NCBI GenBank assembly: GCA_008690995.1
Contig: VRMN01000003.1
Span: 186,001-250,000, forward strand
Source: Porphyridium purpureum
Lineage: Eukaryota > Rhodophyta > Bangiophyceae > Porphyridiales > Porphyridiaceae
DNA: 64,000 nucleotides
Direction of reading: 5' to 3'
This document shows positions 9,803 to 16,747 of this stretch, piece by piece (the stretch's first letter is position 1; each line of letters starts with the position of its first letter). The position numbers and the translations under genes were made by a program. Under the pieces are notes generated by a model. That model was not told the origin of the DNA. It worked only from the letters and a program-made list of their open reading frames with translations, and searched no databases.

Positions 9803-10971
<1,169 letters not shown>

Positions 10972-11453
10972 GACGAATGCTCCAGCGGTGTAAATCATCT
11001 ACAGAAAAGAAGAAAATTTTTTAAAAAAAGTGGAAGAGCTGTCTGGAAATAACAGGAGCGCGGTGGCAGCTAGCTGCTGAACGGACCAAAACGGTGTATT
11101 TACGCACCACAATGGTGGGAATACGACGAGAAACGAAGTCAGCAATATCACATGCGGACAAAACAACATCTGACAAATCTGATGCTTTCGATGAAGGTGT
11201 TGTTTAGCAGCCCGATATCGCTGCCGCCTTCACGCCTTCTCCGTCCACACTTCCTCTCTCTCCCTCTCCACTTGCATGAACGACGTGTCCCACGCAGATA
11301 GACATTCATCGAGCGAAAGAGTATTCGCATCGAGCTTTGCAACGCATGAACCCTATCGAACCCTGCACCCGCTCGACCACGAAAATGTCACGTTCTCCAA
11401 AATACGCATATTTGGTTTTATAAACTATAAAATTCCCCTTTCACATATACATC
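10972..11453. other. Gap between H3 and the tRNA gene
   Basis: It holds the H3 3' flank and the 5' flank of the tRNA. The last 60 bases before the tRNA are A/T-rich with TATA-like stretches near 11418-11432, as is common upstream of tRNA genes in some algae and plants. No open frame here is supported. Confidence 0.4.
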
Positions 11454-11566
11454 GTCCCGTTATTTTAGTGGTAGAATAGCTGCCTTCCACGAGCCAGGAA
11501 AGAAACCTGCTTCGATGTGAGCAGCAGGGCTGGGTTCGATTTCCATCGAATTTCCCGGACGGGATA
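11454..11566 (+). tRNA. tRNA-Gly(TCC) with two introns, one in the T-loop
   Basis: The exons fold as a tRNA. Acceptor 5' strand GTCCCGT (11454-11460) pairs with ACGGGAT (11559-11565), with one G-T. The D-arm loop is AGTGGTA (11467-11473). Anticodon stem GCTGC (11479-11483) pairs with GCAGC (11521-11525). The anticodon loop is CTTCCA plus one base, giving anticodon TCC, and this part matches eukaryotic tRNA-Gly(UCC) closely. A first intron of about 30 bases (11490-11519) sits at the canonical place after position 37. T-stem CTGGG (11530-11534) pairs with CCCGG (11554-11558) only if about 12 bases within 11541-11553 are removed from the T-loop. That insert forms a hairpin TTCGAT-TTCC-ATCGAA with the loop itself. 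Exact splice points are uncertain by a base or two. Ectopic tRNA introns are known from Cyanidioschyzon. Confidence 0.82.
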
Positions 11567-11576
11567 TGGAGTCAAA

Positions 11577-11583
11577 TTTTTTT
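11577..11583 (+). terminator. RNA polymerase III T-run terminator
   Basis: Seven T residues begin 10 bases after the tRNA discriminator base, followed after one G by a second T-run. This is the expected Pol III stop and supports the tRNA call. Confidence 0.75.
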
Positions 11584-12854
11584 GTTTTTTTTGGCATGTG
11601 GGGCCCGCACGAAGCTCTACATCGCACCGCGATGGCCTTGGAGCTTACCTTGCAGCCTCGCCCCGCCCGTGGGACACGCCATCCTTCTTTATTTCCTGCC
11701 CGAGTTGACCCTGGCAGAATTCGGGCATCAGGCTGTGCTATGCCGCGCCCGTCATTTTCGAAGCCGAAACTTTCGAAGGTCCCGCATAGAGTTACATCTC
11801 GGCAGCCAGTCTCATCCAGCGCCGTGGCCAGAATTCGGATGTTTCGCAACATTGACGCAGCTTGCGCACCGCGCCTCTCCCCGATAAACGTTCTGGTCTG
11901 CAGTTGTCCGAGACAGGGCGTGCAAATACCCATGTGCGAGACAACTGCATGGTTTCGAGTTGGCACGGCTGATAATGATTGGGGACGGTTGCGTCATTGC
12001 TCTGTACCAAAGTGTCGAGACCGCCAACGCGGAGGCGCTCGCCAGGCGATGAGTGCCTACTTTGCCGAACGCGCTCAACCGCAAAAATGGACTTGGTGGC
12101 CACTCGCCATACTGTTGCTGCCACCACTTACATAATAATATTAACTTCTAGTGTGCCGTTCTGAGTGTGTCCGCTGCGTCTAGCCCGAGTCTTTTATATT
12201 TCCCTCTAAGCGCAAGATCACTTGCGGTCGATTTCAGCGCCCGCGCGGGTCTCTCATCCAGTAAGCCACACGCGTGAGACCCAATGCGCCGGCGTGATGC
12301 TGATCTTTGCCACGACGCTTGACAGCTCTCACATTGTGCAGCTTCATGGGTGGTTTTCCGAGTATGAATGCGTAGCTGACGTAAATCTGTCTCGTCGGCC
12401 CCGGGACACGTCCATTTGAACACGAAGAAGCGGTTGCTCTCAGTCTGCCGTGAGATAAGTGGGTGTCAAGACGCCATTCCAAGCGCCTTCGCCAGGGCTT
12501 TCGGAGTTTGAATATTATTCACTCCTGTCGCGAAATCCCTACTTTGCTGCCCGGAAAAGCTCCACGGAAAGAAGGAAAGAGAGAAAACGAACAAGGACAC
12601 GGCTTGAACCAGAGCGGATCGGCTAGAGACGATCAACGCGGTGAAGTTGGCTCTCACATTGTATCGCAATTTGGATTGAAAAGTTCGGAATCGCGCTCCA
12701 CACGTATCGCGCGTTGCAGAAACATTTGGAGACGGTCGTCCAGGCCCGCAGCCGACTTCCTCGTCAGCATTCGGACGAGCCTGCGGTCGCGTTTCGTCGA
12801 AAGGGAGACGCGAAAGAGGTTGTCGTACGGCTTTGGAGCGGGCAGCAAGGCACA
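11584..12854. other. Gap between tRNA-Gly and UBC9
   Basis: Open frames up to 189 codons cross this stretch, but none has a recognisable domain and several start inside the tRNA on either strand. The UBC9 promoter must lie in the right part. No clear GTACAGTG copy was seen there. An in-frame extension upstream of UBC9 (from 12714) is treated as untranslated leader. Confidence 0.4.
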
Positions 12855-13328
12855 ATGAGTGGCATTGCGCAAACGCGGTTGCTGGAGGAGCGTAAAAATT
12901 GGCGGAAAGACCACCCGGCTGGCTTTTTTGCGCGGCCCAAACTGGACGATGGGAAGCAAAACTTGATGGTGTGGGAGTGCGGCATTCCGGGGAAGAAGGA
13001 GACGCCATGGGAGGGCGGCGTTTACAAGCTCGTGCTCGAGTTTCCAGAGCAATTCCCGAGCCAACCACCCAAGTGCAGATTCATACCGCCATTGTTCCAC
13101 CCCAACGTGTACCCATCCGGCACTGTGTGTCTGAGCATCCTCGATCCGGACAAGAACTGGCGCCCGGCGCTCACGGTCAAACAAGTGCTGCTCGGTATAC
13201 AGGACTTACTCGATAATCCCAATATCGAGGATCCGGCAAACCAGCCTGCGTACGCGCTGTTTCTAAAGGATAAGAAAAAGTACAGAGAAAAGGTGTTGGC
13301 GATCGCTGCTCAGAACCGTCCCGTGTAA
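12855..13328 (+). CDS. UBC9: SUMO-conjugating enzyme E2 (UBC9)
   Basis: It takes SUMO from the E1 enzyme onto its active cysteine and passes it to target lysines. The protein is 157 residues from the ATG at 12855, the family's usual length. The start [21 protein letters not shown] and the active-site region [16 protein letters not shown] are diagnostic of UBC9 rather than ubiquitin E2s. The catalytic Cys is residue 92. The continuation [19 protein letters not shown] is also UBC9-specific. Upstream in-frame codons from 12714 look like leader sequence and would give a non-family extension. Confidence 0.96.
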
Positions 13329-13587
13329 CTGCAATGGTAAACCAGAAGCATGAACACGGCTCTTCGTCTCTCTCGCTCTCCACGTTCTCTCAATTATTTT
13401 TGGTTTTTGGTACGAGGCCAAATCGCGCGCAAAGACATGAAACACAGCGCGCAGCTCTCGATCCATCACGGTTGGGGCCCACGCTGCACCGTGTCCTGCT
13501 GGGTGGTTAGTGCCTTTATTTAGAAACTTTAATAAACGAGAACATAGCTCCACAGGAATCTGCGAATCCGCGGCCCAAGGCGAGCGA

Positions 13588-14967
13588 CTAACGCAGGCCG
13601 CCTTCTTTTCGGAGCTCGGCTTCCGACATCGTGGTCGACCGATAACTCGCGGTACTCCGTGAGCTCAGCTCGGTGAGCGCCTCCTTTGGCAGCGTGCGCG
13701 TCGAACGCTTGGTGTCCTTCATTGAGAGCTCGTCGTCCAGCTGGGCGGCCAAGTGCGCAGCGTCGGAAAACGTGTACGCACCCTTCTGCGGGCGGAGAAG
13801 CTCGTGCACCTCCTTTGGATGGTAATGAGCAATCTCCCGCAAAAACTCCAGGCGCATCTCATCGGGTGTCATCTTGTTTGAGTTGACCTTCTGCTCAAAG
13901 TCAAACTCCTCGGGTGGAAACGGAGTTCCAATCGTTCCGAGCCCAAGATGCCGATACTCGTTGAAGTATGGATGCTGAAGGGCGTCGTAGCAGCTTATCC
14001 TCTTTTCTGGGTCAAAAGCAAGAAGTTGTTGAAGCAGATCGAGCGCCAGCGGATCAGCGTCTGGAAAGATTTGGTCCAAAGGTCGTCTCGGTCGCACGGG
14101 TAGCTGAGTGACGTATCGCTTCGCCTCCTCGCTGCGCAGTCTCTCGATCGCCTCCGGCGGCGGGCGACCTGTCACCTCCGTGATGAGCTCAAACTGATGA
14201 TATTGGTTCCTACCTGGAAAAAGCGGCTTGCCTCCACTCAGAACCTCTGCAAATATGCACCCGGCGGACCAAATATCAATGGCCGTAGAGTAGTTTGTGA
14301 AATACGCCATGATCAGCTCTGGCGCTCGGTACCACCGGGTCGCGACATAGTCGGTCCAGTAGACCATTTCGGCTGTGTTCTCGAACATGGCGCGCGCAAG
14401 GCCAAAGTCGCAAATGCGCAAATCGCACTGTTTGTTAATGAGAATATTGTTTGGCTTGAGGTCGCGGTGGAACACCTGGCACGAGTGCATGTAGTGCAAT
14501 CCGCGGAATAACTGGAACATCAGGTACTTGACGTGCTCTCCGGACAGCTTTGTCTTCATGTTCAACAGACGATGCAAGTCGGTCGGCATAATCTCGAGCA
14601 CCATGAAAGCATCATTAAACTTTTCGCCGTCGCCCGGCACGAGGACGTCCTTGATCTTAATAATATTCTCATGCGGCATCAGCAGCCGCAAAAACTTGAG
14701 CTCGCGGAGAATCCTGGTGGCCATGGACGGCGAGTTGAGGATCTTTGTCACGCGCTTCACCGCCACCTCCTCGCCAGTGACAGTATTCATCGCGGAGCAC
14801 ACGATCCCGTATGCGCCGCGCCCAATCACCCGCTTGAGCGTGAAGTACTGCTGTCCGTGCGCGCCCGAGCTGAAGAAGAGCTCCTTATCCTTTTTGTTCA
14901 GCTCTTCCTTCTGCTTGCGTCTTTCCTCTGCCGCTTGAGCGCGGGCCGCCTCTGCCTCTGTCTCCAT
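13588..14967 (-). CDS. MAP kinase with TDY activation loop
   Basis: A serine/threonine kinase of the MAPK family, 459 residues from the ATG at 14967; an earlier TTG is not used. A charged coiled leader of about 35 residues precedes the kinase domain. Visible are the glycine loop GRGAYG, the catalytic Lys in EEVAVKRV (Lys71), HRDLKPNNI (Asp169), DFGLA, and the activation loop WTDYVATRWYRAPEL with TDY at 205-207. TDY in place of TEY is typical of the plant/algal group that includes plant group D MAPKs. A C-terminal tail of about 90 residues is rich in Ser/Thr. It is divergent from TOP6A, and ACTGTAC at 15370-15376 lies in the shared gap. Confidence 0.92.
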   Translation of the reverse strand: METEAEAARAQAAEERRKQKEELNKKDKELFFSSGAHGQQYFTLKRVIGRGAYGIVCSAMNTVTGEEVAVKRVTKILNSPSMATRILRELKFLRLLMPHENIIKIKDVLVPGDGEKFNDAFMVLEIMPTDLHRLLNMKTKLSGEHVKYLMFQLFRGLHYMHSCQVFHRDLKPNNILINKQCDLRICDFGLARAMFENTAEMVYWTDYVATRWYRAPELIMAYFTNYSTAIDIWSAGCIFAEVLSGGKPLFPGRNQYHQFELITEVTGRPPPEAIERLRSEEAKRYVTQLPVRPRRPLDQIFPDADPLALDLLQQLLAFDPEKRISCYDALQHPYFNEYRHLGLGTIGTPFPPEEFDFEQKVNSNKMTPDEMRLEFLREIAHYHPKEVHELLRPQKGAYTFSDAAHLAAQLDDELSMKDTKRSTRTLPKEALTELSSRSTASYRSTTMSEAELRKEGGLR

Positions 14968-15445
14968 TTCTTTCCGTCTCCCGCGCAAGCGTCCCTGCCC
15001 ACCCCAGGAAACACCCACGATGCCCCCTTTCCCCCTACCAACCCCACGCTCTCCACCACTCCTCTTCTCCAATCCCCTTCTCCCTGTCGCACTCGCACTG
15101 TCTCAACGTCAAACGCATCCTCAAAACCTTTCCTCTCGACAAGCTCGTTCATAAGCCACGCACACGCACTGAACTTGCGCGCGTTCGTTTGCTACTCGTT
15201 TTCTTCTCGCTTTTTTCCTTTCGGTTTTTGGGACGTTTCCACACTTTTCAACGTGATCATCCCCACTTTTCGCATTTTCGCACCATTTCCTGCGCAACAA
15301 ATCCTGCACGAAACCTTGGGTTCGGAAATGTACGGTTCCTCATCTGGCGCCGCGTGGCACAGAACCTGCACTGTACTTTCATGGTCTGCGGTACAGTATG
15401 AATGTACAGCTGCGCCTGCACGGATTTTCGCGCGCTCGTGGGAAC
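14968..15445. promoter_or_regulatory. Divergent promoter gap, MAPK / TOP6A
   Basis: Three GTAC-centred elements cluster next to TOP6A: ACTGTAC at 15370-15376, GTACAGT at 15391-15397 and GTACAGC at 15404-15410. The MAPK side is pyrimidine-rich on the plus strand. No RNA gene or further coding region was found. Confidence 0.5.
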
Positions 15446-16747
15446 ATGTCACGTGCTGCGCGGGCTGATGCCCGTGGTGGTCAGAGGAGACGAGACGAGC
15501 GGAAAGCACGCCGCAGAATGGGTCCGAGGAAGGCTGGAGGAGGGAGGGCCGACGAGCGCGCAGAGCGAGAGGTAGACCTGTCGGCTGTGCGCGATCTGAG
15601 AAAGCTGCAGGCGGTCAGGCAGCGCAGCGCGCTGTCAAGTGTCGCGCAGCTCGTGTCGTTCCAGCATGTGGTCAAGGAGGTGCAGGAAATGGGCGCGACA
15701 GGCGTCATGCAAGGCGTCCTTTCGCTGTGTGCGCACGCTACAGACTCAATCATGAAGGGCGAAGGATTCTCACTCTTGGTGCCGTCGCGCAGCGCGTCCA
15801 ATCAGATGTACATTGCCGAGCTCGACCGCATTGTGCTCAAGGACAAGGCCACGGCGCGGAACTTTGCCAGCCAGGCCACTGTGCGCAAGGCGGCTATTAC
15901 GGTGCGAATTTTACAACTTGTTCACGAGCTGTGTAAAAAGGGCATCCATGTCACGAAGAGGGATTTGTTCTACACAGACGTCAAGCTGTTCAAGTCACAA
16001 ACAGAGAGCGACGACGTGCTCAATGACATTGCCTGTATGGTGGGATGCACTCGCACAAGCCTCTCGGTCGTCGCGTCGGAGAAAGGTATTGTCATCGGCC
16101 GCGTTCAGTTCCGCGAGGCCGGCGACGAGATCGATTGCACGCGAATGGGAGTGGGTGGCAAGGCTATCCCACCTTTCACGGATAAGATCACCGAAATTCG
16201 ATCCGACGCCGAGTTCATCTTACTTGTGGAAAAGGACGCCGCATTCATGAGACTGGCTGAAGATCGGTTCTACAATCGCTGCCCTTGCATCATCATCACC
16301 GCCAAGGGGCAGCCAGATGTTGCGACGCGTCTATTCCTCAAGCGGTTGAAAAACACGCTCAACATTCCCATACTCGGACTGGTCGACAGCGACCCATACG
16401 GCCTGAAAATTCTGTCCGTATACATGTCTGGCTCGAAGAACATGAGCTACGACAGCGCCAACTTAACCACTCCGGACATCAAGTGGCTCGGTGTGCGTCC
16501 TTCGGACCTCGATCGATACAACATTCCCGAGCAGTGCCGGCTTCCCATGTCGGAACATGACATCAGGACTGGCAAGGAAATGCTTCAGGAGGAGTTCATT
16601 TCTAGCAACGAGGCATGGGCACGCGAACTGGAAATGATGGTGAAGCGCAAGGAAAAAGCCGAAATCCAAGCGTTGTCGAACTTTGGCTTTCAATTCTTGA
16701 CGCAAGAATTTCTTCCGCGCAAGATTGCCGCCGGTGATTGGATTTAG
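15446..16747 (+). CDS. TOP6A: Topoisomerase VI subunit A / SPO11-3
   Basis: The catalytic subunit of plant-type topoisomerase VI, which decatenates DNA by a double-strand passage and is needed for endoreduplication in plants. The active tyrosine lies in [12 protein letters not shown] (Tyr176 counted from this start). The Toprim metal site shows VEKDAAF and [15 protein letters not shown]. The stretches [26 protein letters not shown] and [14 protein letters not shown] match plant SPO11-3/TOP6A better than the meiotic SPO11-1 or -2. An ATG 16 codons upstream (15398) is possible, but its first codons overlap the GTAC promoter elements, so 15446 is preferred (433 residues). The usual TOP6B partner is not in this window. 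Confidence 0.93.

Follow-up and report, generated by a model that had tools for sequence, protein, structure and literature searches.

A tRNA-Gly(UCC) gene with a canonical intron and a putative second intron in the T-loop in the red alga Porphyridium purpureum

Can a tRNA gene whose T-loop is split by a dozen bases still yield a tRNA? This question is raised by positions 11454–11566 (plus strand) of the window, by which we mean the whole 64,000-nucleotide (nt) stretch analysed here, taken from the red alga Porphyridium purpureum (assembly GCA_008690995.1, contig VRMN01000003.1, positions 186,001–250,000). A first-pass annotation, made from the sequence alone, had described the locus as a tRNA-Gly(TCC) gene with a second, ectopic intron. 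We confirmed that it carries a real tRNA-Gly(UCC), interrupted by a 30-base intron at 37/38 and by 12 bases inserted into its T-loop. The reading best supported by our data is that of a canonical intron accompanied by a second, ectopic T-loop intron, and we place at roughly 90% the probability that this is a functional, apparently single-copy nuclear gene whose two-intron transcript is spliced as proposed below. The gene and its signals are arranged as follows.

11419..11438, plus strand: upstream TATA-like element TATAAACTATAAAATTCCCC (TATA is enriched across the collected tRNA loci)
11454..11566, plus strand: tRNA-Gly(UCC) gene, G1 to A73, both introns included (cloverleaf test; ARAGORN on spliced forms)
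11454..11460, plus strand: 5' strand of the acceptor stem, GTCCCGT (7/7 pairs with 11559–11565)
11463..11477, plus strand: D-arm, stem TTTT/GAAT, loop AGTGGTA, 10-25 being U-U (cloverleaf test, 3/4 pairs)
11479..11489, plus strand: 5' strand of the anticodon stem and loop positions 32–37 (anticodon TCC at 11486–11488)
11490..11519, plus strand: canonical intron, 30 nt, at 37/38 (ARAGORN i(37,30) after removal of the T-loop insert; folds)
11520..11529, plus strand: A38, 3' strand of the anticodon stem, GCAGC, and variable loop of 4 nt (cloverleaf test)
11530..11540, plus strand: 5' strand of the T-stem, CTGGG, and T-loop positions 54–59, TTCGAT (TTCG doubles as a strand of the bulge-helix-bulge core)
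11541..11552, plus strand: putative ectopic T-loop intron TTCCATCGAATT, 12 nt, at 59/60 (CGAA of the insert pairs with T-loop 54–57)
11553..11566, plus strand: T60, 3' strand of the T-stem, CCCGG, 3' strand of the acceptor stem, ACGGGAT, and A73 (CCA not encoded)
11577..11592, plus strand: T-run containing one G, a probable terminator for RNA polymerase III (TTTT is enriched across tRNA loci)

The first-pass claim that the cloverleaf stems pair once two inserts are removed was borne out both by a scripted cloverleaf test and by ARAGORN on the spliced forms. The acceptor stem GTCCCGT/ACGGGAT forms 7 of 7 pairs, with G1-U72 as a wobble, and the anticodon stem GCTGC/GCAGC and the T-stem CTGGG/CCCGG each form 5 of 5. 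As encoded, the anticodon loop measures 37 nt (7 + 30) and the T-loop 19 nt (7 + 12). With both inserts taken out, U8, A14, G18G19, U33, a TTCRANN T-loop, the UCC anticodon and A73 are all present. In the real flanks, removal of the T-loop insert alone led ARAGORN in intron mode to call tRNA-Gly(TCC) with a 30-nt intron placed at 37, in agreement with the insert of about 30 bases that had been proposed at the canonical anticodon position. Removal of both inserts gave the same call in either mode, and ARAGORN reported nothing for the unspliced precursor or after removal of the 37/38 insert alone.

The cloverleaf test also served as a finder seeded on T-arms; long variable arms fall outside its coverage, and it misreads L007, a selenocysteine (Sec) gene according to ARAGORN, assigning it anticodon CCC and a long D-loop. 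When bases outside the T-arm were shuffled, the observed tRNA-Gly(UCC) score was reached in 0 of 3000 trials and any tRNA body appeared in 10 of 3000. Across the four genes with a T-loop intron described below, 12,000 base-shuffles gave the observed body scores in none and any body in 34. Scanning both strands of the window from 164 T-arm seeds returned tRNA-Gly(UCC) as the single match at a threshold of 26. Over the genomic loci (523,280 bases, both strands counted and partly overlapping), the scan gave 20 rows scoring at least 26.5, all of them at recognised tRNA genes; it was repeated with the last two loci included.

The insert had been placed between T-loop positions 59 and 61. This holds, with 59/60 as the best placement and a slide of one base allowed: cuts at 58/59, 59/60 or 60/61 give an identical mature TTCGATT, and 59/60 is the bulge-helix-bulge (BHB) register, with A58-T59^T and TT^T60 on opposite sides and C61 following the latter. 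In this register the core TTCG/CGAA has 4 of 4 pairs and a 3-nt bulge precedes C61; the outer helix is absent, which makes it the bulge-helix-loop form. Without the 12-base insert the spliced T-loop joint is predicted to read CTGGGTTCGATT-CCCGG. By inspection of the sequence and the fold, the 37/38 intron shows a UG^A bulge before G39, an adjoining C32-G pair, a C36-A37^C bulge and an intron hairpin, its BHB core having 3 of 4 pairs. The pairing TTCGAT/ATCGAA singled out by the first-pass annotation is the minimum-energy fold of the T-arm, a hairpin atop the T-stem with a minimum free energy (MFE) of −11.2 kcal/mol. The fold of the whole precursor has a z-score of −3.09, and none of 200 shuffles folded as well.

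The proposal of a compact BHB-like substrate was strengthened when the core pairing recurred at the same position in five further loci. In all six, namely Gly(UCC), elongator Met, Arg(UCG), Tyr(GUA), a permuted Lys(UUU) and a candidate Ile(UAU), all four T-loop bases 54–57 pair with the tetramer that precedes C61 by three bases, and at the other offsets from 0 to 7 no 4/4 pairing occurs in any of them. The joint chance for the five loci found without this rule is 2e-8 at one fixed offset and 1.6e-7 over 8 offsets; these are post hoc values, as the rule was derived after the first loci had been seen, and Tyr is supported by its tRNA body and not by the motif. Judged from these sequences, one strand of the BHB core at the T-loop junction is predicted to be the tRNA's own T-loop. 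With half of the splice motif supplied in this way, an insert would need little beyond YGAA and two bases, so that about 10 bases would suffice.

The Gly(UCC) insert is one case of a recurrent pattern in the same genome. A tRNA family search of the genome (22.16 megabases, 46 contigs) returned 17 loci at an E-value of 10, 4 of which, namely elongator Met, Arg(UCG), Lys(UUU) and Ile(UAU), have a T-loop junction when read with their flanks. Elongator Met (L042/L056) and Arg(UCG) (L059) each have a complete tRNA body around a T-loop insert, of 16 nt and 10 nt, respectively. Tyr(GUA) (L086, G000:C20:199593, minus strand), newly found through a motif pattern built on the pairing rule, contains three inserts, in the D-loop, at 37/38 (20 nt) and in the T-loop (11 nt). 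Lys(UUU) (L058, G000:C2:2091229, minus strand) is circularly permuted at 59/60: the 3' half, CCCAC-GGTGGGT-A, stands upstream of the 5' half, and 27 bases lie between the halves. With artificial A flanks, ARAGORN recognised the spliced Met, Arg and Tyr forms and the rejoined Lys as the expected tRNAs but made no call for Met, Arg or Tyr before splicing; a Tyr form that kept the D-loop insert was called Ser(AGA). An alignment of three T-loop genes made with MAFFT was misaligned and was not used.

Disruption extends to other genes and other positions. Thr(UGU) (L061, G000:C14:661337) is circularly permuted at 37/38, and its rejoined halves, again given artificial A flanks, were recognised by ARAGORN. 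The halves of Ile(UAU) (L062, G000:C8:565243) are arranged as in a gene permuted at 59/60, with perfectly paired acceptor and T-stems, and its D-loop contains the direct repeat GTGTACCGC; it has no U8 and no TATA within 70 nt, and ARAGORN does not recognise it with the D-loop insert kept. We regard it, on its sequence, as a candidate permuted tRNA gene. Gly(GCC) (L057, G000:C1:2009415) carries inserts in the D-loop and at 37/38 and an uninterrupted T-loop, TTCGATT, identical to the predicted spliced T-loop of Gly(UCC); the match between the two genes has 2 mismatches in 21. Ala(UGC) has an insert in the D-loop. Undecided candidates are a Val-like locus with a D-arm insert (L060), a locus with a Tyr-like anticodon and no clear 5' acceptor (L063) and a Ser-like locus (L020). 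A B-box pattern, GGTTCGANTCC, matched the genome 40 times vs 38 times in the reversed control. Each match was examined by eye, with ARAGORN in intron mode and with the finder, minus-strand matches mostly from one side, and three proved recognisable as tRNAs: a Leu(CAA) gene, the Gly(GCC) gene and a Ser-like gene whose D-arm holds an insert. Taken together, the P. purpureum tRNA set seems, from its gene sequences, to show a Cyanidioschyzon-like disruption that combines ectopic introns and permutation.

A second, intact tRNA-Gly(TCC) gene, for which the first-pass annotation had allowed, did not turn up: within 3 mismatches the 5' exon occurs at a single place in the genome, the gene itself (the reversed control gave 3), and no other UCC gene is present among the fetched loci that the finder recognises. 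The intronless 3' region, likewise within 3 mismatches, is matched only by Gly(GCC) and a place on contig C21; the latter has 3 of 5 T-stem pairs, no tRNA body and no ARAGORN call, and was rejected as a copy. In 16 selected long open reading frames (ORFs) of the window, GGA accounts for 140 of 752 Gly codons. In the 19 collected tRNA loci, undecided candidates among them, a TATA occurs in the 70 nt upstream of 15, against 5.7% of random 70-mers from the window, and a TTTT in the 45 nt downstream of 16, against 12.3% of random 45-mers. The tRNA-Gly(UCC) gene has both.

The genome also encodes components of the enzyme that such splicing calls for. It contains two PF01974 proteins, whose nearest solved structures are Sen2 and Sen34; the Sen2-like protein (contig C11) is 100% identical over 100% of its length to the NCBI entry "tRNA-splicing endonuclease subunit Sen2 [Porphyridium purpureum]". 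Also encoded is an N-terminal domain of Sen54, and RtcB has two matches (C3:263918 and C1:1357653). A search for Sen15 (PF09631) gave 0 genome matches, with prokaryotes as the control genomes; being short and divergent, such a subunit may escape a search.

From the gene anatomy, the recurrent core pairing in the sister genes and the enzyme genes, all directly observed, we infer transcription, cleavage and ligation of the Gly(UCC) transcript; the order of events and the choice of ligase are drawn by analogy from C. merolae and general knowledge. RNA polymerase III would probably start from the upstream TATA-like element and stop at the T-run. In the folded precursor, UUCG of the T-loop (54–57) would pair with a CGAA close to the insert's 3' end, leaving the bulge A58-U59^U and the bulge U-U^U60 before C61, a minimal BHB. 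The tRNA splicing endonuclease (Sen2/Sen34 with Sen54) could then cut both T-loop sites, and a ligase, plausibly RtcB, would restore a T-loop reading UUCGAUU. Excision of the 30-nt intron at 37/38 would follow the normal route and probably come second, the order seen in C. merolae.

Several observations weigh against this reading. The D-stem is only 3/4 paired, with U10-U25 unpaired. Default ARAGORN and Rfam, run over the window, did not detect the locus, and the genome-wide Rfam tRNA family search left it unlisted even at an E-value of 10. With artificial A flanks, ARAGORN also called a Gly tRNA with the T-loop insert kept; that call used a shifted frame that included the added A's and was gone with the real flanks. 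The TTCGAT/ATCGAA pairing, sound as the minimum-energy fold, is on its own just marginally to moderately unusual (z −1.85, with 6 of 200 shuffles as good). The splice motif is likewise not enriched in the genome, being rarer than in the reversed control: the GG..CC pattern matched 30 times vs 58, 3 of the matches having a tRNA body (Gly(UCC), Arg(UCG) and Tyr(GUA)), and the AG..CT pattern 23 times vs 93, with one body, the already known elongator Met. What makes the case is the surrounding tRNA body. Finally, no second Gly(UCC) gene was seen among the fetched loci recognisable to the finder, and since the genome searches score the best candidates only, a differently disrupted copy could escape.

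One rival reading is a relic, a tRNA-Gly gene killed by a small T-loop insertion and replaced by another gene. The failure of Rfam and ARAGORN to recognise the gene as it stands and the broken 10-25 pair fit a dead gene, but pairing is complete in the acceptor, anticodon and T-stems, signals resembling a promoter and a terminator are kept, and in three more isoacceptor genes an insert occupies the same site and forms the same pairing. A replacement was not found in the genome searches or the fetched loci, and GGA codons are in use; we consider a relic very improbable. Still less probable is that the mature tRNA retains the 12 bases as an enlarged, hairpin-shaped T-loop. The hairpin on the T-stem (MFE −11.2 kcal/mol) would suit this, but a 19-nt T-loop would disturb the elbow formed by the D-loop and the T-loop. 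Moreover, the inserts vary in sequence and length between genes (10, 11, 12 and 16 nt), yet they have the splicing geometry in common, and the permuted genes sharing the junction must be cut there to yield a tRNA at all. An assembly or sequencing error is the least credible account: TTCGATTTCC/TCGAATTTCC is an imperfect short direct repeat that resembles a tandem duplication, whereas genes on other contigs (C24, C11 and C20) are interrupted at the same place by different sequences, and the pairing rule would not survive errors.

We compared the two-intron gene with described systems, drawing on excerpts of the cited papers. Among the nearest is C. merolae with its ectopic and multiple introns (Soma et al. 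2007, 2013, by way of PMC3978253 and PMC9602550). In C. merolae, tRNA introns measure 11–69 base pairs (bp) and are spread over the cloverleaf, with cis introns of the T-arm at 53/54 in Ile(UAU) and at 55/56 (13 bp) in a permuted Gly(CCC) (PMC3978253). The Gly(UCC) insert is therefore not exceptionally short, as had been supposed, and the sister Arg(UCG) insert has 10 nt. The same alga has 11 permuted tRNA genes, three with a 59/60 junction, Lys(TTT) among them (PMC3978253); such type IV permutations are listed for Ala, Arg and Lys of C. merolae and for Thermofilum pendens (PMC3978253, Table 1). Since C. merolae is known to have both T-loop introns and permutations at 59/60, the Gly(UCC) case belongs to a known kind. 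The two algae are further alike in having short introns both at 37/38 and within the D- and T-arms, in BHB-type junctions and in TATA plus T-stretch signals (PMC3978253, PMC9602550), the upstream TATA and T-stretch arrangement being that of C. merolae tRNA genes (PMC3978253). According to the excerpts of PMC3978253 and PMC4090602, C. merolae has Sen2, Sen34 and Sen54 and no recognised Sen15; the P. purpureum search for Sen15 likewise gave no match, though it may have missed the subunit.

There are also differences. C. merolae is a hot-spring extremophile and P. purpureum a mesophile of another order, NCBI taxonomy placing Porphyridium in Porphyridiales and Cyanidioschyzon in Cyanidiales. In C. 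merolae, 59/60 serves for permutation junctions and the cis introns of the T-arm lie elsewhere, as far as given in PMC3978253, whereas in P. purpureum it serves for both. Lys(TTT) is of type IV in both species (L058 in P. purpureum), with the 59/60 junction in common, but the P. purpureum Gly(UCC) gene itself is unpermuted. In archaea, T-loop introns are among the non-canonical sites, 59/60 permutations are known too, and T-loop BHB or relaxed BHB motifs are cleaved by EndA-family enzymes (PMC6379350); by contrast, the P. purpureum gene is eukaryotic and nuclear, with RNA polymerase III-like signals and a heteromeric Sen enzyme. The Guillardia theta nucleomorph resembles it in having ectopic tRNA introns, some extremely short, in an algal genome (Kawach et al. 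2005, as cited in PMC4090602 and PMC3978253), while all six P. purpureum T-loop junctions have the core pairing and the 3-nt spacing.

In the openly licensed literature, as far as its excerpts go, we found no description of ectopic or permuted tRNA genes in Porphyridium, which is not proof of absence, and the excerpted reviews list permuted, multiply interrupted red-algal tRNA genes for Cyanidioschyzon only (PMC3978253, PMC4033280). The point of interest is that a red alga outside Cyanidiophyceae shows, in its predicted genes, the whole disrupted-tRNA syndrome; in PMC13353863, P. purpureum is the outgroup to Cyanidiophyceae. Its occurrence in a mesophilic red alga from a different order turns the choice between ancestral and convergent origin into a testable question. 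The Lys(UUU) type IV permutation and the T-loop junctions common to Cyanidioschyzon and Porphyridium, together with the unrecognised Sen15, may point to a common ancestor of living red algae in which tRNA genes were already permuted and split several times over, with repair following in Galdieria and in the multicellular lineages, a scenario that we hold tentatively and think less probable than its opposite. Since type IV accounts for 3 of 43 genes in C. merolae, a coincidence in Lys(TTT) would arise in roughly 7–14% of cases in one or two trials by our own arithmetic, so the common permutation type is only a lead to inheritance.

Disrupted genes could also explain the low tRNA counts of unicellular red algae. 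By default tRNAscan-SE, these have 22–26 tRNA genes except for Galdieria (82), and multicellular ones 97–165 (PMC10496412); P. purpureum belongs to that set, the 22–26 being the range for the unicellular group and not a count for the species. In C. merolae, 42 anticodons have been identified, more than the 22–26 counted by tRNAscan-SE in unicellular red algae. The pairing rule described here may be of use as an aid in tRNA annotation.

Some further observations concern the surroundings and the searches. A weak Rfam match in the window, to the small RNA Atu_Ti4, scored 16.2 bits vs a cut-off of 40, was probably due to chance and was rejected. Identical or nearly identical short matches were seen on different contigs (C11:856788, C12:39799 and C40:314980; C17:115890 and C27:91746; C8:28678 and C43:823214; C17:14287 and C28:31218) and probably represent dispersed repeats or mobile elements. 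Immediately upstream of the tRNA gene, at window positions 9803–10971, lie divergent histone H4 (minus strand) and H3 (plus strand) genes; downstream, at 12855–16747, are a UBC9-like E2 gene, a MAP-kinase-like gene and an ORF resembling Spo11/topoisomerase VI A, all named by eye, the histones from their translations.
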